Below are positions 9,998-23,549 of a stretch of 30,105 nt of DNA, in pieces (position 1 is the stretch's first letter; each line of letters opens with the position of its first letter). Source of the DNA: a virus; the IMG/VR virus record IMGVR_UViG_3300046368_000125, positions 1 through 30,105 of that record; one strand, given 5' to 3'. The notes under the pieces were generated by a model that saw only the letters and a list, made by a program, of their open reading frames with translations, made no database searches and was not told the DNA's origin. The position numbers and the translations under genes were made by a program.

Positions 9998-10419
9998 AAT
10001 ACTATAAACAAATGGAACAAAAAGAACTAGAACACCAAGAACAAGTAAGAGGGGTTTATGATGAACCAATAAACGACAGACACTTAGCTTATTTAAAGTG
10101 CGTATTGATAAGTCAATTACTACTAGAAGCAAACGATGATTTAAAAGGCAGTAAAGCATTTAAACAAAACGTAAAGCTACAAGTCAATAAAACATCAAAT
10201 ATACTAGAACGAATATACCAAGAGGGTTTTAACACTGTATATCATAATAACCCAGAGATGTGTACTAACGTACTAAACAAAATAGACAGCTTAATACACA
10301 AAATAAAAACCGCTAGTATTGACGAGCTAGTAATGATTGATGCACTAGTTGATAACTACTTTCAAAACAAAGAAGAACATAATAAAAACCAAACAGCAGA
10401 ATTCACTAAAATAGATTAA
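9976..10419 (+). CDS. 147-aa helical protein of unknown function
   Basis: The gene starts inside the DUF3310 gene (22-nt overlap). The protein is nearly all helical and charged: KQIEYYKQMEQKELEHQEQ near the start, then an alpha-helical core (35-125). No motif is recognised. Similar helical proteins occur near replication genes in Bacteroidota phages. An alternative start at M13 (10012) would reduce the overlap. Confidence 0.7.
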   Translation: MDRKKQIEYYKQMEQKELEHQEQVRGVYDEPINDRHLAYLKCVLISQLLLEANDDLKGSKAFKQNVKLQVNKTSNILERIYQEGFNTVYHNNPEMCTNVLNKIDSLIHKIKTASIDELVMIDALVDNYFQNKEEHNKNQTAEFTKID

Positions 10420-10420
10420 A

Positions 10421-10555
10421 ATGTACGTAAACATAGAAGTAAAAAAAGCAGACCGAAAAGACTATTATAAATTTAATATTAACGGAGTTAAACTAGGAGA
10501 ATGGGAACGGTCAGACCTTAGACACTTAATAGAAGTTATAGACAATAAAATATAG
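10421..10555 (+). CDS. 44-aa micro-protein
   Basis: ATG 10421, one base after the previous stop, to TAG 10553-10555. It appears to contain two beta strands and a helix (YYKFNINGVKLGEWERSD). No motif is recognised; tight spacing to both neighbours supports it. Confidence 0.6.
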   Translation: MYVNIEVKKADRKDYYKFNINGVKLGEWERSDLRHLIEVIDNKI

Positions 10556-10560
10556 ATAAA

Positions 10561-10704
10561 ATGAAAACACCAAAACAAATAGTACAATACGCAATAGACA
10601 ATCCACATACAGAAGAATACACAGGCTCTAATTGCTGCGGTGCTTCACAGTGGTTAGAAACAGATTTATGTAGTGAGTGCTTAGAACACGCAGAATTTAA
10701 TTAA
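10561..10704 (+). CDS. 47-aa zinc-ribbon micro-protein
   Basis: ATG 10561 to TAA 10702-10704. The segment SNCCGASQWLETDLCSECLEH carries C25-C26 and C37-x-x-C40, a compact zinc-ribbon arrangement often found in phage micro-proteins ending with CSxCxEHAEF. It probably acts as a nucleic-acid or protein adaptor. Confidence 0.7.
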   Translation: MKTPKQIVQYAIDNPHTEEYTGSNCCGASQWLETDLCSECLEHAEFN

Positions 10705-10712
10705 AAACAAAT

Positions 10713-11234
10713 ATGAAACTAGAAACGATAAAAGAAGCAGTAAATAAAAAATTCAATTTAGATATATCAGTAAACACAAGACAAAGGAATTACTCTTATG
10801 CTAAAAAGGTATTTAGTAAACTAGCTTATGAGAGTGGAGCTACATTTAGAGAGGTAGGCGATGTAATAAAAAAAAGTCACTGTAACATATTGCACCACGT
10901 TAATAGCATAGATGTAATAACAATTCAAGACAAAAGGAAACACGATGAGATAATAAGAGAACTAGGACTAGTTTTATCTAAACCATTTTTTAATTCAGAA
11001 CAAGACAAAATAAAAAAAGAAATAAAAAGAAAAACAACAACCAAAACAATAAAAGAAATACAAGACGTTATAGACATCTTAACAGGCTGGGATATAGAAA
11101 CAGTAGAAGAATTTAAACAAACACGACTAGACCCATTTAACGCATTAATAAAGACTAGAGTAAAGCGTAAGACAATACCAGAAATAAAAGGTGCTATATT
11201 AAACAAGAAAGTTAAAAACCCTGTACTATGCTAA
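10713..11234 (+). CDS. DnaA domain IV-like DNA-binding protein
   Basis: Residues 1-70 resemble the C-terminal DNA-binding domain of DnaA: a first helix LETIKEAVNKKFNL, then NTRQRNYSYAKKVFSKLA (21-38), SGATFREVGDVIKKSHCNILHHVN (41-64), where SHCNILHH stands where DnaA has RDHSTVLHA. The middle (about 95-112) is very basic and the rest is helical; no AAA+ domain is present. Such proteins could bind DnaA-box-like sites, seed replication or block host DnaA. It overlaps the methyltransferase gene by 7 nt. The family link is by motif; the role is inferred. Confidence 0.7.
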   Translation: MKLETIKEAVNKKFNLDISVNTRQRNYSYAKKVFSKLAYESGATFREVGDVIKKSHCNILHHVNSIDVITIQDKRKHDEIIRELGLVLSKPFFNSEQDKIKKEIKRKTTTKTIKEIQDVIDILTGWDIETVEEFKQTRLDPFNALIKTRVKRKTIPEIKGAILNKKVKNPVLC

Positions 11235-11869
11235 TAACAAACGAGGATAATATGGAACTAATGGCAAGGTATGAGGATAACTATTTTGACCTTGCGATAG
11301 TAGACCCTCCTTACGGGATTGGTGCTGATGATAAAAATAGTACAGACAAAAAACAGTCAAAAAAATCTGCATATAAAAGCAAAGATTATGGTTGCCAAAA
11401 ATGGGATAATGCAATACCTACAGATGATTATTTTTTAGAGTTAAAACGAGTTAGTAAAAAACAGATTGTATGGGGTGCAAATTTTTTTAATTTACAAGGT
11501 GGAATGTTGTATTGGCATAAGCACGTTACAATGCCTACATACTCACAAGGGGAATTAGCTTGGTTAAGTTGGCTAAATAAAGTTGATTTTGTTTCTATTG
11601 CTTGGCACGGAATGATACAACACGATATGAAGAATAAAGAAAACAGAATACACCCAACACAAAAACCTGTAAAGCTATACGAATGGCTTTTAATGAACTA
11701 CGCAAAGGAAGGTGATAAAATACTCGACACTCACTTAGGTAGTGGTTCAATAGCTATTGCCTGTCATAATTTAAACTTTGATTTAACCGCTTGTGAACTA
11801 GATAAAGAGTATTACGATGCAGCAATAAAAAGAATAGAGCAGCACAAAGCACAACAAAGGTTATTCTAA
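11228..11869 (+). CDS. DNA N6-adenine/N4-cytosine methyltransferase
   Basis: Motif IV DPPY is at 26-29 (VDPPYGIG). Motif I (ILDTHLGSGSIAIAC, about 163-177) lies near the C-terminus, as in beta-class amino-methyltransferases, and the HPTQKP block (about 142-147) precedes it. The enzyme would transfer methyl from S-adenosylmethionine to an exocyclic amino group. At 213 aa it is compact, with a short target-recognition region between residues 35 and 130. No restriction endonuclease partner is visible beside it, so it is a solitary phage methyltransferase, probably for restriction evasion or regulation. It is the last early gene before the terminase. Confidence 0.9.
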   Translation: MLITNEDNMELMARYEDNYFDLAIVDPPYGIGADDKNSTDKKQSKKSAYKSKDYGCQKWDNAIPTDDYFLELKRVSKKQIVWGANFFNLQGGMLYWHKHVTMPTYSQGELAWLSWLNKVDFVSIAWHGMIQHDMKNKENRIHPTQKPVKLYEWLLMNYAKEGDKILDTHLGSGSIAIACHNLNFDLTACELDKEYYDAAIKRIEQHKAQQRLF

Positions 11870-11918: not shown

Positions 11919-12188
11919 ATGGATAACAGAAAAAATAATGGGGGTGCTAGACAAGGTGCTGGACGTAAACCAAAAGCAATAGAACAAAAACTAATTGAAC
12001 GCTTAGATGCTATAATAGACAAAGACGAGGCTATAAGTAAACTAGGGGAGTTAGTAGCAAAAGGCGATATGAGAGCAGTACAGCTATATTTAAGCTATCG
12101 TTATGGGAAACCTAAAGAAAGTGTAGACATTAACTCTAGTGAGGGCTTAAACATTAATTTTAGAGATTTAATAAAGTTCGTTGATTAA
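11919..12188 (+). CDS. terS: terminase small subunit
   Basis: The 89-aa protein begins with an AT-hook-like segment NNGGARQGAGRKPKA (6-20), followed by a helical region for oligomerisation. The C-terminal SSEGLNINFRDLIKFVD is typical of small subunits that contact the large terminase. GARxGAGRK at the start is common in TerS proteins of Bacteroidota phages. It recognises the packaging site on phage DNA. Its final codons overlap the TTG start of the large subunit by 8 nt. It is short for TerS, but the position directly before TerL leaves little doubt. Confidence 0.8.
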   Translation: MDNRKNNGGARQGAGRKPKAIEQKLIERLDAIIDKDEAISKLGELVAKGDMRAVQLYLSYRYGKPKESVDINSSEGLNINFRDLIKFVD

Positions 12189-13389
12189 AGTAAAAAAGAA
12201 ATATATGCCTATTGTTGAAAGCGACAGTAGGTATTTTATTGTGAGTGGTGGGCGTGGTTCCGGGAAATCTTTTTCAGTAAACGCCCTTTTAGTGATGCTA
12301 ACATACGAACAAGGTCACACGATACTGTTTACACGTTACACGCTAACCTCTGCCTATATATCAATCATTCCAGAGTTTATAGACAAGCTAGAACAGTTCG
12401 GTTCAATAGCAGACTTTCACATAACCAAAGATGAAATACTAAATAAAAAGACTGGTAGTAAAATAATATTCAGAGGGATAAAGACTTCAAGCGGTGACCA
12501 GACTGCAAACCTTAAATCTTTACAAGGCATTACAACGTGGGTTGTAGATGAAGCAGAAGAACTAGTAGATGAACAAAAGTTTGATACTATTGATTTGTCA
12601 GTAAGACAGCAAGGCAAATCAAACAGAATTATATTAATACTAAACCCTACAACAAAAGAGCATTTTATATATAGACGTTTCTTTGAGGACAGAGGGGTGC
12701 AAGAGGGTAGCAATACAATTAAAGAAAATACAACTTACATACATACAACGTACCAGGACAATATAGACAACTTATCTAAAAGCTATATAGAACAAATAGA
12801 GCAAATGAAGATAAGACGTCCAGAGAAATACAAACAACAAATGTTAGGTGCGTGGCTAAACAAAGCAGAGGGGGTTATATTTAATAATTGGAGTGTAGGG
12901 GATTTCAAACATATAGGCACAAGTGTATGGGGTCAAGATTATGGATTTGCAGCAGACCCTAGTACATTGGTTGAAGTTAATATTGACAGTTCTAACAGAC
13001 GTATTTATTTAAAGGAATGTTTCTACTTACAAAGACTAACAACGTCACAAATAGCACAGCTAAATTTAAAACACGCTAGAGAGGGTTTAATCGTTGGAGA
13101 TAGTGCAGAGCCTAGACTACTAAGCGAAATAAAAGCAAAGGGTTGTAATGTACGCCCAAGTATAAAAGGACAAGGGAGTGTTACTTATGGTATCAGCTTA
13201 TTACAGGACTATGACATTATAGTAAGTCCAGATAGCACCAACTTAATTAAGGAGCTAAACAACTATCGTTGGCTAGAACGCAAGAGTAATACACCAATAG
13301 ACAAATACAACCACTTAATAGATGCGGTTAGGTATGCAGTGGGCTTTCAACTACAAAACCCAAACAGAGGTAAATATACTGTATCTTAA
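12181..13389 (+). CDS. terL: terminase large subunit (XtmB/PBSX type)
   Basis: Packaging motor and nuclease. The N-terminal ATPase shows Walker A SGGRGSGKS (22-30), Walker B WVVDE (D123, catalytic E124) and the coupling region NPT. The C-terminal RNase-H-like nuclease shows GQDYGF (D253), VGDSAEP (D307) and NHLIDAVRY (D381) as the metal-binding acidic residues. Length (402 aa) and motif order fit the Terminase_3/XtmB family. TTG 12181 gives the best overlap with TerS; ATG 12205 would remove eight residues without harming the ATPase. Relatives often use headful packaging, which agrees with the circularly permuted contig. Confidence 0.95.
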   Translation: MIKVKKKYMPIVESDSRYFIVSGGRGSGKSFSVNALLVMLTYEQGHTILFTRYTLTSAYISIIPEFIDKLEQFGSIADFHITKDEILNKKTGSKIIFRGIKTSSGDQTANLKSLQGITTWVVDEAEELVDEQKFDTIDLSVRQQGKSNRIILILNPTTKEHFIYRRFFEDRGVQEGSNTIKENTTYIHTTYQDNIDNLSKSYIEQIEQMKIRRPEKYKQQMLGAWLNKAEGVIFNNWSVGDFKHIGTSVWGQDYGFAADPSTLVEVNIDSSNRRIYLKECFYLQRLTTSQIAQLNLKHAREGLIVGDSAEPRLLSEIKAKGCNVRPSIKGQGSVTYGISLLQDYDIIVSPDSTNLIKELNNYRWLERKSNTPIDKYNHLIDAVRYAVGFQLQNPNRGKYTVS

Positions 13390-13699: not shown

Positions 13700-13725
13700 A
13701 AAACAAACAAAAAATTTTTAAATAA

Positions 13726-13752
13726 CCCTTGCAGAAATGTAGGGGTTTTTTT
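13726..13752 (+). terminator. rho-independent terminator with GAAA loop
   Basis: Stem CCCTTGCA (13726-13733) / TGTAGGGG (13738-13745), with two G-U pairs, closed by a GAAA tetraloop and followed by seven T. It ends the small-gene unit before the tail genes. Confidence 0.8.
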
Positions 13753-13798: not shown

Positions 13799-14443
13799 AT
13801 GAAAGTTAAGTTAAGCATACCAACAACGTTAAATGAAATCACTCTAGGGCAATACCAAGAGTTTGATAAATTAGATTTAACAAAGGAAGCAGAGGTGCAA
13901 TCTAAGATGATTGAGATATTCTGTAAAGTACCTATTGAGGTTGTACGTTCAATGAAAGCAAAAGACATAAACGATATTTGTCTTATTATTAATAATATGT
14001 TTGACACAGAGCATCAGCTTATAAATAGGTTTCAAATGAACGGTATTGATTACGGCTTTATACCAGACTTAGAAAATATGAGTTTTGGGGAATACGTGGA
14101 CTTAGATACGTTTATAGGCGATAACGATAATTTACATAGAGCTATGAATGTTCTATATAGACCTATTGATTTAAAGCAAGGACAAAGATACACGCTTAAA
14201 GAATACGACCCAGATACAAATGAAGATGCTAAGAACTATCCTTTAGATGCTGTATTCGGTGCTATTGTTTTTTTTTACAATTTAGGCAAGGACTTATCGA
14301 CAGTTATTCTGAACTCTTCGAGCAAACAGAACGAGGAGAGCTTAGCGCAATTTCTGGCTTCACAGCAAAATGGGGGTGGTACAATTCAATCTATGCAATC
14401 GCTGACGGAGATATTACGAGATTTGAAAATATCACTAAACTAA
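13799..14443 (+). CDS. tail assembly chaperone, zero-frame product (G-like)
   Basis: The 214-aa protein starts KLSIPTTLNEITLGQYQEF and contains a helical core, features of small tail-assembly proteins of Bacteroidota phages. The open frame extends back to a TTG at 13751, but ATG 13799 directly after the terminator and TTTATATATTAAT block is the likely start. A nine-T run (14268-14276) at codons 157-159 offers a slippery U UUU UUU, and a second coding frame continues beyond it. After the run the zero frame uses codons rare elsewhere (CTG, CAG, TCG), consistent with overlapping coding. As with lambda gpG/gpGT, the short and extended forms would guide the tail tube onto the tape measure. Confidence 0.7.
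   Translation: MKVKLSIPTTLNEITLGQYQEFDKLDLTKEAEVQSKMIEIFCKVPIEVVRSMKAKDINDICLIINNMFDTEHQLINRFQMNGIDYGFIPDLENMSFGEYVDLDTFIGDNDNLHRAMNVLYRPIDLKQGQRYTLKEYDPDTNEDAKNYPLDAVFGAIVFFYNLGKDLSTVILNSSSKQNEESLAQFLASQQNGGGTIQSMQSLTEILRDLKISLN
14268..14276 (+). other. probable programmed -1 frameshift site (T9)
   Basis: In the zero frame the run reads GTT TTT TTT TAC. The heptamer T-TTT-TTT at 14269-14275 lets both Phe tRNAs re-pair after slipping back one base; reading continues with TTA at 14275. The -1 frame is open from 14233 to 14529 and has no ATG, GTG or TTG before its conserved part. Confidence 0.65.
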
Positions 14444-14529
14444 ACGTACACGAATGTTTGACGTATTTAACATTCACAAAAGAAAAAAACGAAATAGAAG
14501 CAAGAAATATTAAAAGCAAATTCAAATGA
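14275..14529 (+). CDS. -1 frame extension of tail assembly chaperone (GT-like)
   Basis: These 84 codons in the -1 frame end at TGA 14527-14529, which overlaps ATG 14526 of the next gene. Joined at the slip site they give a product of about 243 aa. The sequence looks like real protein: FTAKWGWYNSIYAIADGDI (from about 14359), then NVHECLTYLTFTKEKNEIEA. A KWGWYxxIYxLAxGD pattern is, as I recall, typical of the downstream ORF in this tail-chaperone pair of Bacteroidota phages. Without it, 14444-14525 would be an unexplained gap in a tightly packed operon. The alternative, a sequencing or natural frameshift in the T run, would still make this region coding. Confidence 0.65.
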   Translation, partial: LQFRQGLIDSYSELFEQTERGELSAISGFTAKWGWYNSIYAIADGDITRFENITKLNVHECLTYLTFTKEKNEIEARNIKSKFK

Positions 14530-14996
14530 GTTACACAGGAATAAGAGGTTACTATTTATTAACACAAGCAATTAAAGATGCTTTACTAGGTGATATAAAT
14601 GTAAACACTGTCACAGAGGGAGATTTGTTTGATATTGATTTGTCTAAGCAATCTATATTTCCATTATCTCATTTGATTATAAATACAGTTACAGCACAAG
14701 AGAGTGTGCTAAGGTTTAACATATCTATTTTATCAATGGATATAGTAGATGAAAGTAAAGAGCCTACAACGGATATATTTATAGGAAACAATAATGAGCA
14801 AGATGTTTTAAATACACAACTAGCCGTATTAAATAAGCTAGTCCAAGTTTTAAGGCGTGGTGATTTATATAATGACAAATACCAACTTGACGGTGACGCA
14901 AGTCTTGAACCATTTGTTGATAGGTTTGAAAATAAAGTAGCTGGTTGGACTGCAACGCTTGACATATTGGTGAATAACGATATTGAAATATGTTAG
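14526..14996 (+). CDS. putative tail terminator / tail completion protein
   Basis: The 156-aa alpha/beta protein has LSKQSIFPLSHLIINTV (about 39-55), a long strand with SILSMDIVDES (67-77) and DVLNTQLAVLNKLVQVLRRGDL (91-112). The size, and the position between the chaperone and an HK97-gp10-like gene, fit tail terminator or neck proteins, which have a similar strand-helix layout. It overlaps the frameshift product's stop by 4 nt and the next gene by 7 nt. No catalytic motif; structural role inferred. Confidence 0.55.
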   Translation: MSYTGIRGYYLLTQAIKDALLGDINVNTVTEGDLFDIDLSKQSIFPLSHLIINTVTAQESVLRFNISILSMDIVDESKEPTTDIFIGNNNEQDVLNTQLAVLNKLVQVLRRGDLYNDKYQLDGDASLEPFVDRFENKVAGWTATLDILVNNDIEIC

Positions 14997-15520
14997 CAGA
15001 CAAAGCCTTAAAAGAAGAATTAAATAAGTTCGCCAAGTACGTTATACAACAAAGCCGAAGCAACCTATCTAAAAGCAATAGGAACGACACTAAGGCACTT
15101 TATAACAGTTTAGGGTATAATATAGAGCTAACGACAAAAGGAACTGAATTAGGCTTTAGTATGGAGCAATACGGAGAGTTCCAAGACAAAGGAGTTAGGG
15201 GTAAATCGTCAAGTGCAAAAGCGCCAAACAGTCCGTTTAAGTTTGGCAGTGGCACAGGAAAAAAAGGTGGTTTAACAAACAGTATTAATAAATGGGTTAA
15301 ACGAAAAGGAATACAATTTAGAGATAAAAAATCTGGGCGTTTTTTAAGTTATCAAAGTACAGCGTTTTTAATTTCAAGAAGCATATACCAAAAAGGAATT
15401 AAGCCAAGTTTGTTTTTTACTAAGCCATTTGTAGCGGCTTTTAAAAGGTTGCCAGATGATTTAATTGAAGCGTATTCTTTAGGGTTGGAAAAAGATTTAA
15501 TAAAATTAACAAAACGATAA
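14990..15520 (+). CDS. HK97 gp10-like neck/tail protein
   Basis: The 176-aa basic protein has an N-terminal helix (LADKALKEELNKFAKYVIQQSRSNL), the pattern KALYNSLGYNI...GFSMEQYGEFQDKGVRG (about 37-72) and a C-terminal FLISRSIYQKGIKPSLFFTKPF. YGxFxDxGVRG and a late KGIKPSxFF are characteristic of HK97-gp10/minor head-tail proteins that close the head-tail junction. It overlaps the previous gene by 7 nt. The assignment rests on motif and operon position. Confidence 0.65.
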   Translation: MLADKALKEELNKFAKYVIQQSRSNLSKSNRNDTKALYNSLGYNIELTTKGTELGFSMEQYGEFQDKGVRGKSSSAKAPNSPFKFGSGTGKKGGLTNSINKWVKRKGIQFRDKKSGRFLSYQSTAFLISRSIYQKGIKPSLFFTKPFVAAFKRLPDDLIEAYSLGLEKDLIKLTKR

Positions 15521-19238: not shown

Positions 19239-19375
19239 TAAAATTAATAATAGAGAGTTTAAAATACGCAAACGGAGAAACTGAAAATTTGCGAATAGCA
19301 CAAGGTAAATACAAACTACCTACAACATTAAAAGAGGGTTACAAGGCTTTAAAACAAGAGATAAAATGGCAATAG
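19235..19375 (+). CDS. 46-aa micro-protein between tail tip and tape measure
   Basis: ATG 19235 overlaps the previous stop by 4 nt and the TAG at 19373-19375 overlaps the tape-measure start by 10 nt. The basic peptide (KLIIESLKYANGETENLR...) has no recognised motif. The double overlap supports translation and may couple expression of its neighbours. Confidence 0.6.
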   Translation: MIKLIIESLKYANGETENLRIAQGKYKLPTTLKEGYKALKQEIKWQ

Positions 19376-21243
19376 AAAAAACAATTAATTTAAACGTTGA
19401 TAGTAAAAAAGCTACAAAGGGTTTAAAAGATTTAGAGAAAGGTATTGACGGAGTAAATAAAGAGGTTAAAGAAACAAGTAAATCTACTCAATCAATGAAC
19501 ACCACTCTTGACCAAGTAACAGGTGGTGCGGTTACTAAATTTAGTAAATTCAAAGGTGCTATTAGTAGCGTTACAACAGGGTTTAAGTCTTTAAGGGTTG
19601 CTATCATAGCCACAGGAATTGGTGCTTTATTAATAGCTGTTGTAGCTTTAGGACAAGCGTTTACAAGAAGCGAAGAGGGACAAAATAAGTTCGCTAAAAT
19701 ACTAGGGGTTATTGGTAGTGTTACAGGAAACCTTTTGGATTTATTAGCTGACTTAGGCGAAAACATTATAAGTGCTTTTGAAAACCCTAAACAAGCATTA
19801 ATAGATTTTAAAAATTTAATAGTTGAAAACATAACTAATAGATTTGAAGCTGCTATTGACACTGTGGGTTTTTTAGGGAGTGCTTTTAAGAAAGTGTTTA
19901 GTGGCGATTTTACTGGAGCTTTAGAAGATGCTAAAAAGGCTGGTAGTAGTTATATTGATGGCTTAACTGGGGTAAAAAATACAATAGATAAAGCATCTGA
20001 AAGTGTTAAGAATTTTACTAAAGAAATTGTTGATGATGCAAATGCAGCGGTAAAGATTGCGGACCAAAGAGCAAACGCAGAAAAGAAAGCAAGAGGTTTA
20101 ATAGTTGAACGAGCTGAAGCAGAAAGAAAAATTGCTGAATTAAGGGAAAAGGCGGTTAATAAAGATAAATTTACTGCACAAGAAAGAATTAAATTTTTAG
20201 AAGAAGCTGGGCGTGTAAGTGATGAACTAGCAGCGAAAGAAGTGCAAGTAGCTAAATTAAGATTAGAAGCTAAACAAACTGAAAACGCATTAACTAAAAG
20301 CAATAAGGACGATTTAAACGAAGCAGCACAACTAGAAGCTAGTGTTATACAATTAGAAACCCAAAGACTTAATTTACAAAAACGTTTAAGCACTGAATTA
20401 TTAACATCTAGGCGTGAAGTAACAGCAGAAGAAAAAGCCAATATAAAAGAATTATCTGATTTAAAGAAAACATTAAGAGATGCGGAAGCGGTTTCTGAAC
20501 AAGAAAAAAGAGAACTAGAGCTAATTAAAATTCAAGAACATTATGATAATTTAATTGCAAAAGCTAACGAAAACAATATAAAGACTGGTGAATTAGAAGC
20601 AGCAAGAGATGAGGCTAAATTATTAAAACAAGCAGAATTTGATGAAAAAGATTTAGCTGCTAAAACAAAAAAACAAGAAGAGGAACAAGCATTAAGGCAA
20701 AAAACCATTAATGAGTTATTAGCAGAAAAAGAAGCAAAGGCACAAATACAATTAGCAACTATTGGGGTTGCAGAAAAAGGTATCGCTATTGGTAAACAAC
20801 TAGCTGGTAAAAATAAAGATGTTCAGAAAGCACTTTTAATCGCTGAAAATGCCGCTGGTATAGCTAAAATATTAATAAATACAGGGGTTGCAAATGCTAA
20901 GGCAGTAGCGACTTCCCCTATAACAGGTGGGCAGCCTTGGGTTGCGATTAATTCAATAAGTGCAGGTCTGGGCATTGCTGGTAGTATAGCCGCAACAGCT
21001 AAGGGTTTAAGCGCTTTAGGTGGTGGAAGTGCTGGAAGTAAACCAAACGCACCCTCTGGAAGCGGTGGTGGTACTGCTCCAACCCCTCCAAGTTTCAATG
21101 TAGTTGGTGCAAGTGAAACAAGTGTTTTAGGTGATGCAGTTGCAAGTCAAACTAACGAACCAATACAAGCCTATGTAGTATCGAATGACGTTACTACCGC
21201 ACAAAGTTTAGAAAACAATATTGTTGAGGGTGCAACTTTATAA
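19366..21243 (+). CDS. tail tape measure protein
   Basis: The 625-aa protein has a hydrophobic, glycine-rich stretch at about 75-100 (RVAIIATGIGALLIAVVALG) and further amphipathic segments to ~190. A long charged coiled coil spans about 220-470. A small-residue hydrophobic region (about 478-560) leads to a Gly/Pro/Ser-rich linker. The C-terminus PIQAYVVSNDVTTAQSLENNI is typical of tape measures of Bacteroidota phages. It sets tail length and may form the DNA channel during ejection; by the usual ~0.15 nm per residue rule the tail would be near 90-95 nm. No peptidase motif was noticed. Confidence 0.85.
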   Translation: MAIEKTINLNVDSKKATKGLKDLEKGIDGVNKEVKETSKSTQSMNTTLDQVTGGAVTKFSKFKGAISSVTTGFKSLRVAIIATGIGALLIAVVALGQAFTRSEEGQNKFAKILGVIGSVTGNLLDLLADLGENIISAFENPKQALIDFKNLIVENITNRFEAAIDTVGFLGSAFKKVFSGDFTGALEDAKKAGSSYIDGLTGVKNTIDKASESVKNFTKEIVDDANAAVKIADQRANAEKKARGLIVERAEAERKIAELREKAVNKDKFTAQERIKFLEEAGRVSDELAAKEVQVAKLRLEAKQTENALTKSNKDDLNEAAQLEASVIQLETQRLNLQKRLSTELLTSRREVTAEEKANIKELSDLKKTLRDAEAVSEQEKRELELIKIQEHYDNLIAKANENNIKTGELEAARDEAKLLKQAEFDEKDLAAKTKKQEEEQALRQKTINELLAEKEAKAQIQLATIGVAEKGIAIGKQLAGKNKDVQKALLIAENAAGIAKILINTGVANAKAVATSPITGGQPWVAINSISAGLGIAGSIAATAKGLSALGGGSAGSKPNAPSGSGGGTAPTPPSFNVVGASETSVLGDAVASQTNEPIQAYVVSNDVTTAQSLENNIVEGATL

Positions 21244-21278: not shown

Positions 21279-22223
21279 ATGAGAATAGTCGAATTAATAT
21301 TAGACGAAGAAAGCGATTTAGGGATTGAAGCCATTTCAGTAGTTGAAAACCCAGCTATTGAAGAAGATTTTGTTGCTTTAAAAAGCCAAGAGTTTAAACT
21401 TGCAGAAATAGACGGAGAGCGTAGGATATTAATGGGTGCTTTATTAATACCAAATAAACCTATTTACAGACGCAATGGTGAAGATGAATACTATATATAT
21501 TTTTCAAAAGATACTGTCTTAAAAGCGTCCCAAATGTATTTAATGAATAGCAAACAAAACAACTCAACACTAGAACACCAACACCAATTGGAGGGTTTAA
21601 GTTTAGTCGAAAGTTGGATAGTTGAGGACAAGGTACACGATAAAAGCGTTAAGTACGGAATGGATTTACCTTTGGGTTCGTGGGTTGGTTCTGTAAAAGT
21701 AAACAACGACCAAATATGGAATGAGTTTGTTAAGACTGGCAAAGTAAAAGGCTTCAGTATTGAGGGGTATTTCGCTGATAAAATGGAACGTCCAAACGAC
21801 CAAACAATAAAAGACGAACTAGCACAAATAGAAGAAGAAGAAGCTGAATACTTACTAGGCGAAATAAAAGCTATTATTAAAAATGATAAACGAGTTAAGG
21901 GCGGTAAAAAAATGGTTTTAGAGAGCTATTCGGACTACCCTAGTTCAGTGAGTAACAACGCTAAAAGAGGGTTAAAACTTAACGAAGCGGTTAATAATAA
22001 ATGCGCTACACAAGTTGGTAAAATTAGAGCGCAGCAATTAGCACAAGGAAAACCAATAAGCAAAGAAACAATAAAAAGAATGTACTCTTATTTGTCAAGA
22101 GCAGAAGCTTATTACAATCCAGAAGATAAAGAAGCTTGTGGAACTATATCATATTTATTATGGGGTGGCAAATCGGCTAAAACTTGGGCAGAGGCTAAAC
22201 TTAAACAACTAGAAAATGATTAA
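21279..22223 (+). CDS. XkdF-like prohead protease with C-terminal domain
   Basis: The N-terminal ~185 residues match the XkdF-type phage protease: EAISVVENPAIEEDF (17-31), LMGALLIPNKPIYR (51-64), LEHQHQLEGLSLVESWIVED (98-117, H100/H102), GSWVGSVKV (133-141) and KGFSIEGYF (157-165, S160). H100/102 and S160 are the candidate catalytic pair. It would mature the procapsid by cutting scaffold and capsid precursor. A Glu-rich linker leads to a separate C-terminal domain (~213-314) with KPISKETIKRMYSYLSRAEA and GTISYLLWGGKSAKTW, a module found on other phage head proteins. It overlaps the next gene by 8 nt. The scaffold gene follows closely, in agreement. Confidence 0.82.
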   Translation: MRIVELILDEESDLGIEAISVVENPAIEEDFVALKSQEFKLAEIDGERRILMGALLIPNKPIYRRNGEDEYYIYFSKDTVLKASQMYLMNSKQNNSTLEHQHQLEGLSLVESWIVEDKVHDKSVKYGMDLPLGSWVGSVKVNNDQIWNEFVKTGKVKGFSIEGYFADKMERPNDQTIKDELAQIEEEEAEYLLGEIKAIIKNDKRVKGGKKMVLESYSDYPSSVSNNAKRGLKLNEAVNNKCATQVGKIRAQQLAQGKPISKETIKRMYSYLSRAEAYYNPEDKEACGTISYLLWGGKSAKTWAEAKLKQLEND

Positions 22224-22922: not shown

Positions 22923-23549
22923 ATGAAATCAAACAACGTGATAGAAAAAATCAAAGACGTTCTAAACCTTAACGAAGAAGTTAAGTTAGAACAAGCTAAA
23001 CTAGACAACGGTACAGTCATTGAGGCTGATGCGTTTGAAAGTGGAAACGAAGTTTTTATCGTTACAGAAGATGAGAAAGTTGCTTTGCCTATTGGCGAGT
23101 ATGCATTGGAAGATGGTAAAATATTAGTAGTAGCCGAAGAGGGTCTTATTTCTGAAATCAAAGATGCCGAAGCCGAAGAAGAAACCGAAGAAATTGAAGA
23201 GGTTGAAGAGGTTGAAGCAAAAGAAGAAGAAAAAGAAGAAATGGGCTACGCTACTAAAGAAGAACTAGCAGAGGTTAAAGATATGATTGAAGAAATCAAA
23301 GCAATGCTAGAACCAAAAGAGGATTTAAGTGCTGATGACTTAGGCAACCTTTTAACGGAAGAATTAGCTAAACACGAAAAAGTTGAGTTAAACGAAATTC
23401 CTGTTGAAGTGCAAGCAGAATTAAACGAACCAAGTGCAGAGCCTATCGTATCAAATCCAGAAGTACATAAAACTATCTCGAAATTTAGTGTTTCTAAAAA
23501 CAGAAAAAGCACTACTATTGACCGAGTAATGTCAAGACTAAATAATTAA
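22923..23549 (+). CDS. capsid scaffold protein
   Basis: The 208-aa, very acidic protein has a beta-like N-terminal part ending in EYALEDGKILVVAEEGLISEI (60-80), a Glu-rich central stretch (about 82-105), a coiled-coil-like segment KEELAEVKDMIEEIKAML (113-130) and a basic C-terminus ending RKSTTIDRVMSRLNN, suitable for binding capsid subunits. This layout directly before the major capsid gene is typical of phage scaffolds, which build the procapsid and are then removed, here probably by the XkdF-like protease. Confidence 0.82.
   Translation: MKSNNVIEKIKDVLNLNEEVKLEQAKLDNGTVIEADAFESGNEVFIVTEDEKVALPIGEYALEDGKILVVAEEGLISEIKDAEAEEETEEIEEVEEVEAKEEEKEEMGYATKEELAEVKDMIEEIKAMLEPKEDLSADDLGNLLTEELAKHEKVELNEIPVEVQAELNEPSAEPIVSNPEVHKTISKFSVSKNRKSTTIDRVMSRLNN

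Follow-up and report, generated by a model that had tools for sequence, protein, structure and literature searches.

The closest described systems include the tail genes of phages lambda and P2. In lambda, a gene of the tail cluster gives gpG and gpGT, a short and a long form with a common start, by way of a -1 shift at GGGAAAG that has no evident stimulator; the short form stops five codons past the slip, and the gene lies directly between the major tail protein and the tape measure. Pairs of this type are further defined by a short form binding to the tape measure and a long form that brings in the tail tube, both of them missing from virions. In P2 (gpE and gpE+E') and in P2-like phages such as Smp131 (PMC3931495), a tail gene undergoes a -1 shift on a run of six or seven T's followed by G or C, and the P2 short form ends six codons after TTTTTTG. 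In particular, T7G and T7C slip sites have been described in P2-like phages and prophages, where Smp131 has T7G and T7C is predicted (PMC3931495), and a downstream stimulatory structure is unnecessary in certain tailed phages (PMC5009743). Outside tail genes, runs of nine A or T are found in Thermus dnaX, in Shigella mxiE and in IS elements (PMC1088944, PMC5009743), where transcriptional slippage is established; mxiE and the IS elements join overlapping frames, and slippage in dnaX ends a frame early. In many bacteria, nine is also where avoidance of A/T runs sets in (PMC1088944; see also PMC5009743), and where homologs conserve such a run of nine, purposeful transcriptional slippage is very likely (PMC1088944). 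In the literature searched, we found neither a tail-assembly case of transcriptional slippage nor a description of recoding of the kind reported here in Bacteroidota phages.

The locus studied here comes from a 30,105-base virus record (IMGVR_UViG_3300046368_000125), the whole of which forms the analysed window. The host of the virus is a marine Bacteroidota of the Flavobacteria type; judged by the recoded gene, its nearest named relatives are the Nonlabens phages P12024S and P12024L, and homologs of the gene are present in Winogradskyella and Flavobacteriaceae genome bins. The recoded gene (13799-14529) is the first of the tail cluster, preceded by the large terminase gene (terL, 12181-13389) and by a terminator-like hairpin with a T tail (13724-13747, + strand), which is called from its consensus match only and suggests that the recoded gene probably opens the tail transcription unit. 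The gene starts at ATG 13799, and its zero frame has 214 codons (13799-14443, + strand), closed by TAA 14441-14443. A T9 run (14268-14276, + strand) occupies zero-frame codons 157-160 as GTT TTT TTT TAC, and the zero frame extends 55 codons beyond the second TTT, both of which the first-pass annotation had read correctly. Equally visible, as it had stated, is an open -1 frame at 14233-14529, preceded by TAA at 14230 and closed by TGA 14527-14529, which overlaps as ATGA the ATG at 14526 of the next gene (14526-14996, + strand, 156 aa, phrog_30964, unknown). A -1 shift at the run would lead to a 243-aa product (159 + 84 aa) with the junction GAIVFF-LQFRQGL, whose 84-aa extension after the slip (14275-14529, + strand) reads LQFRQGL...KWGWYNSIY...KFK up to the stop TGA.

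Further downstream on the + strand are a neighbour gene whose fold, from a low-confidence model, resembles an HK97 gp10-like tail or neck component (14990-15520) and, four genes on from the recoded gene, a 625-aa tape-measure candidate (19366-21243) that matches phrog_9483, tail length tape measure, with E=8e-9. Separately, the window has two genes, at 21279-22223 and 22923-23549, that match positions 2-172 and 216-317 of the 349 positions of phrog_24921; they are separated by two small genes, resembling a split structural gene, and the first of them also matches head maturation protease families.

The frame relation at this locus recurs throughout its family. Starting from 80 close relatives, the locus set was extended to remote ones found from P12024L, from both domain profiles and from two divergent members, and profiles of the N-terminal (zero-frame) and C-terminal (-1) domains were run against the three forward frames of all loci. 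The C-terminal domain lies in the -1 frame relative to the N-terminal domain in 374 of the 374 public loci having both, which goes well past what chance would produce. After duplicate removal, 281 slip sites remained, with T9 in 266 and T10 in 15, all in register, and a run shorter than T9 occurs in none of these distinct homologous sites; this conservation reaches down to about 25-30% protein identity. For example, the isolate P12024L, which is about 30% identical, has CTT TTT TTT TAT, a T9 in the same register, and its -1 frame has a stop only a few codons 5' of the run, pinning the shift to the run. The remote members L384, L387 and L391-L395 have T9 too. Moreover, the -1 peptide directly after the run is conserved (FLxFR..L...Y).

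Outside this locus set, a gene search in 397 genomes of one host's family found the gene in three, the starting genome among them, and a search in 395 genomes of the same host's phylum gave no additional carrier, so that these carriers are too few to assess alternative slip sites. In the phylum, the C-terminal profile gave a single partial match (G660), where a quick look showed no WGW block. Flavobacterium phage 6H (L397, KC959568) encodes a protein, matched by its 191-aa length (10352-10927, minus strand), whose fold is remotely related to that of the short form. The phage 6H gene has TGT TTT TTC TAT close to its end, and the unannotated stretch after it has an ORF in another frame, but a simple -1 slip meets a stop immediately; recoding in this phage, if any, differs from the T9 system.

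Synonymous differences in the zero frame, counted over 33 independent pairs, show where the second frame begins to matter. The counts are normal up to codon 156 (67 observed and 71 expected over codons 146-156), fall to 0 observed versus 26 expected at codons 157-160, and amount to 92 observed versus 335 expected over codons 157-214, a ratio of 0.27. This comparison of synonymous sites in relatives, which the first-pass annotation had suggested, thus places the onset of selection on the -1 frame exactly at the run, as far as sequence can tell. The zero-frame tail beyond the run is evidently selected as well, according to rate differences and shuffles. In the overlap, across 94 pairs from the wider family, the change rates per opportunity are 0.21 for doubly silent changes, 0.034-0.044 for singly silent changes and 0.016 for changes silent in neither frame. 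When synonymous codons are shuffled with the zero-frame protein kept, the -1 frame stays open in only 0-1.4% of cases; with the -1 protein kept, the zero frame stays open in 0-2.6%. By these measures, both frames are under purifying selection over the 55 codons after the run, the dual-coded overlap (14276-14443, + strand) that forms the C-terminal tail of the short form after codon 159. Unusual zero-frame codons would be the expected outcome of dual coding, and those pointed out in the original reading of the locus match this expectation. Across homologs, the zero frame usually has 52-88 further codons after the slip; shorter tails of about 16 to 25 codons are found in P12024L-like phages and a relative.

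Together, the frame relation, the conserved run, the stop of synonymous change at the run and the dual selection argue that the T9 run (14268-14276) is a site of programmed -1 recoding, with products of 214 and 243 aa, and we put the probability of this reading at roughly 0.93. The initial proposal of a programmed -1 frameshift at the T9 is in this respect borne out by all 374 loci, all 281 sites and the selection on both frames. The gene would be read into two proteins with a common N-terminal domain, where ordinary reading would yield the 214-aa short form and, in a fraction of cases, a slip at the T9 would lead into the -1 frame and yield the 243-aa long form. The two forms probably act like the tail chaperones G/GT of lambda or E/E' of P2; the short form would then be made in excess, and the long form would bring in a further tail component via its KWGWY domain.

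The slip itself may take place at either of two levels of gene expression. For RNA polymerase the chances are about even, for the ribosome they fall moderately short of even, and a contribution of both is improbable; with no conserved RNA structure downstream, slippage by RNA polymerase is at least as likely as the ribosomal slip first proposed. In the first case, RNA polymerase would stutter on the T9, and the fraction of mRNA with U10 would align the -1 frame; run lengths of 9+3n would give zero-frame proteins with extra Phe, and U8 or U11 transcripts would be truncated almost immediately. The junction peptide is identical under a polymerase or a ribosomal slip, and protein evidence of the junction alone therefore cannot tell the two apart.

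Several features of the run point to the polymerase. The run is uninterrupted and conserved, and nine T's are the floor in 281 of 281 distinct sites. In particular, a change of the second Phe codon from TTT to TTC is silent in both frames (Phe in one; Leu, TTA to CTA, in the other) and leaves a legal T TTT TTC, yet it is absent: a difference at this base is found in 0 of 96 independent pairs, whereas other doubly silent transitions differ at a rate of 23% (P about 1e-11), and TTC makes up 27% of upstream Phe codons yet is never the second Phe of the run. This doubly silent change, which breaks the T run, keeps the heptamer and is never used, amounts to a natural test between transcriptional and ribosomal slippage. 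In one lineage (L385/L386) the preceding codon is GGT, so that the first T is lost, and the next codon is TTG, which restores nine T's; TTN is present at the next codon in only 6 of 95 diverse loci. Further, among 989 other genes of the fetched loci, A runs of at least nine are about five times rarer than expected under synonymous shuffling (10 versus 54), where runs of seven or eight A's are hardly avoided (328 versus 382), which suggests that the threshold for slippage lies at nine in the phages and in their hosts. The +1 frame is closed after two codons in 85 of 95 loci, and no downstream RNA structure was detected. Against slippage by the polymerase, tail-chaperone recoding that has been studied by experiment is treated as ribosomal, and the unvarying last base of the heptamer may reflect tuning of ribosomal efficiency. 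Amino-acid requirements (V/L/I/F before the run and the -1 Leu after it) may also account in part for the outer T's, and the run-length argument therefore comes mainly from the doubly silent site and the one compensated lineage. Conservation of the first T was dropped as evidence on run length, as other V/L/I/F columns are equally clean.

A ribosomal -1 frameshift, in which two Phe-tRNAs would slip in tandem at the U UUU UUU site originally proposed for this locus, is a possibility of somewhat less than even weight. The X XXY YYZ heptamer (T TTT TTT) is in perfect register in all 281 sites, and this part of the original proposal stands. Tail genes of P2 and P2-like phages have T6G, T7G or T7C, and certain tailed phages can do without a stimulator (PMC5009743). 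However, the heptamer requires seven T's and all sites have an uninterrupted run of at least nine, which suits polymerase slippage equally well or better, and the variant with C in the third position, predicted as T7C in P2-like prophages, is doubly silent here, yet absent. Runs of seven or eight T's in slippery register elsewhere in the 989 genes are not specially avoided (31 versus 68 expected; out of register, 10 versus 42), and the window has one such in-register T run in its methyltransferase gene (11482-11488). A stem-loop or pseudoknot 3' of the site, which is common at ribosomal frameshift sites but not obligatory, is not conserved among 95 diverse loci, whose downstream regions have a mean z of about 0; in the window, the region downstream of the run has a z of 0.49 and no Rfam match.

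The role of the recoded gene as a tail assembly chaperone is inferred by analogy. The zero-frame product matches phrog_32199, of unknown function (E=1.5e-22), and in PHROGs there is also a weak match to phrog_166, tail protein; no curated chaperone family in Pfam or NCBIfam matches either frame. In its predicted structure (mean pLDDT 79), the short form is similar to a large number of phage proteins that are uncharacterised and, weakly, to one BFVD entry named 'Tail assembly chaperone' (E=0.026). No solved structure is similar by sequence and the fold search against solved structures gave only weak matches, from which no conclusion on the fold is drawn. The recoding could be real in a protein that has two alternative C-termini and serves tail assembly or the neck in some other way than as a chaperone; we regard this as unlikely. 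It would agree with the position of the gene, which opens its cluster, is followed by the gp10-like gene (neck or tail) and stands four genes from the tape-measure candidate, with the lack of a matching chaperone model, and with the selection on both alternative tails; in lambda and P2, by contrast, the short form stops five to six codons past the slip. However, two products from one start through -1 recoding in a tail cluster are a hallmark of tail chaperones, and the weak matches to an annotated tail assembly chaperone and to phrog_166 point in the same direction. Of the features that define lambda G/GT-type genes, overlapping -1-joined frames with a common N-terminus are present at the sequence level in all 374 loci, with selection on both frames, and the slip site is conserved among homologs (281 of 281 sites and P12024L), but the gene is not located directly between the major tail protein and the tape measure. 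The recoded gene is therefore described as working like a tail chaperone, and not as a proven member of the class; for the chaperone assignment in the first-pass annotation, the -1 recoded pair in a tail cluster speaks in favour and the position of the gene against, and the model and fold searches gave one weak fold match to a protein of this name.

That the two frames are separate genes, the second with its own start, is very improbable. It is how P12024L is annotated, where gp41 (L082, 11528-11695) begins at an ATG beside the gp40 stop. However, as had been noticed at the outset, the -1 frame of the window has no ATG, GTG or TTG ahead of the KWGWY block, and its first such codon is TTG 14458; 63 of 95 diverse loci likewise lack an alternative start before the block, and none is conserved. 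An independent start of the -1 frame is rejected on account of these missing starts, and the -1 peptide is conserved and the synonymous sites are frozen from the run on, well before the gp41 ATG. The annotated gp41 of P12024L is the C-terminal end of what the -1 frame of gp40 encodes, so that both the published annotation and phrog_38404 seem to contain a truncated part of the recoded gene. Finally, an assembly error or a frameshift mutation in a formerly single gene has a negligible probability: homopolymers are error-prone, but no relative among the loci compared has both frames fused, and the 281 distinct sites, which come from many samples and agree with the isolate P12024L, rule out a sequencing error or a pseudogene. 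A shorter run, a fused relative and a conserved independent start, the findings that had been named as contrary to programmed recoding, do not occur in hundreds of independent assemblies.

The programmed -1 recoding proposed here can now be set beside the known systems. One counterpart is the gp40/gp41 pair of Nonlabens P12024S and P12024L (phrog_32199, phrog_38404), a homologous pair with T9 in the same register, which differs in its shorter overlap of 16 codons and in its annotation as two unrelated hypothetical proteins; in PHROGs, the halves are kept as separate families of unknown function. For hundreds of environmental genomes of Bacteroidota phages, a missing half-gene can thereby be assigned; databases list the two halves of the gene as separate unknowns. 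The locus shares with bacterial genes that use transcriptional slippage a run of nine, but slippage there is established, whereas here it is putative and deduced from sequence. As in P2 and P2-like phages, a tail gene would undergo the -1 shift at a run of T's, but here the run has at least nine T's, uninterrupted, the searches made found no sequence family in common with P2, and the gene order is also unlike that of P2. The locus shares with lambda the common start, the short and long forms, the tail cluster and the lack of an evident stimulator, but it has T9 and 55 dual-coded codons in place of GGGAAAG and an early stop, and the gene is first in its cluster. The parallel to lambda G/GT with a poly-U slip that was drawn at first is thus valid for the comparable -1 pair, but poly-U slippage in tail chaperones is already known from P2 (T6G) and Smp131 (T7G). 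What is new, on the present evidence, is the long overlap with demonstrable selection on both frames and the uninterrupted U run of at least nine. With a likelihood just under one half, many Bacteroidota phages make two tail-assembly proteins, with both tails selected, by polymerase slippage on an obligatory T9, and not by ribosomal frameshifting; if so, they have reached a G/GT-like logic at another step of gene expression.
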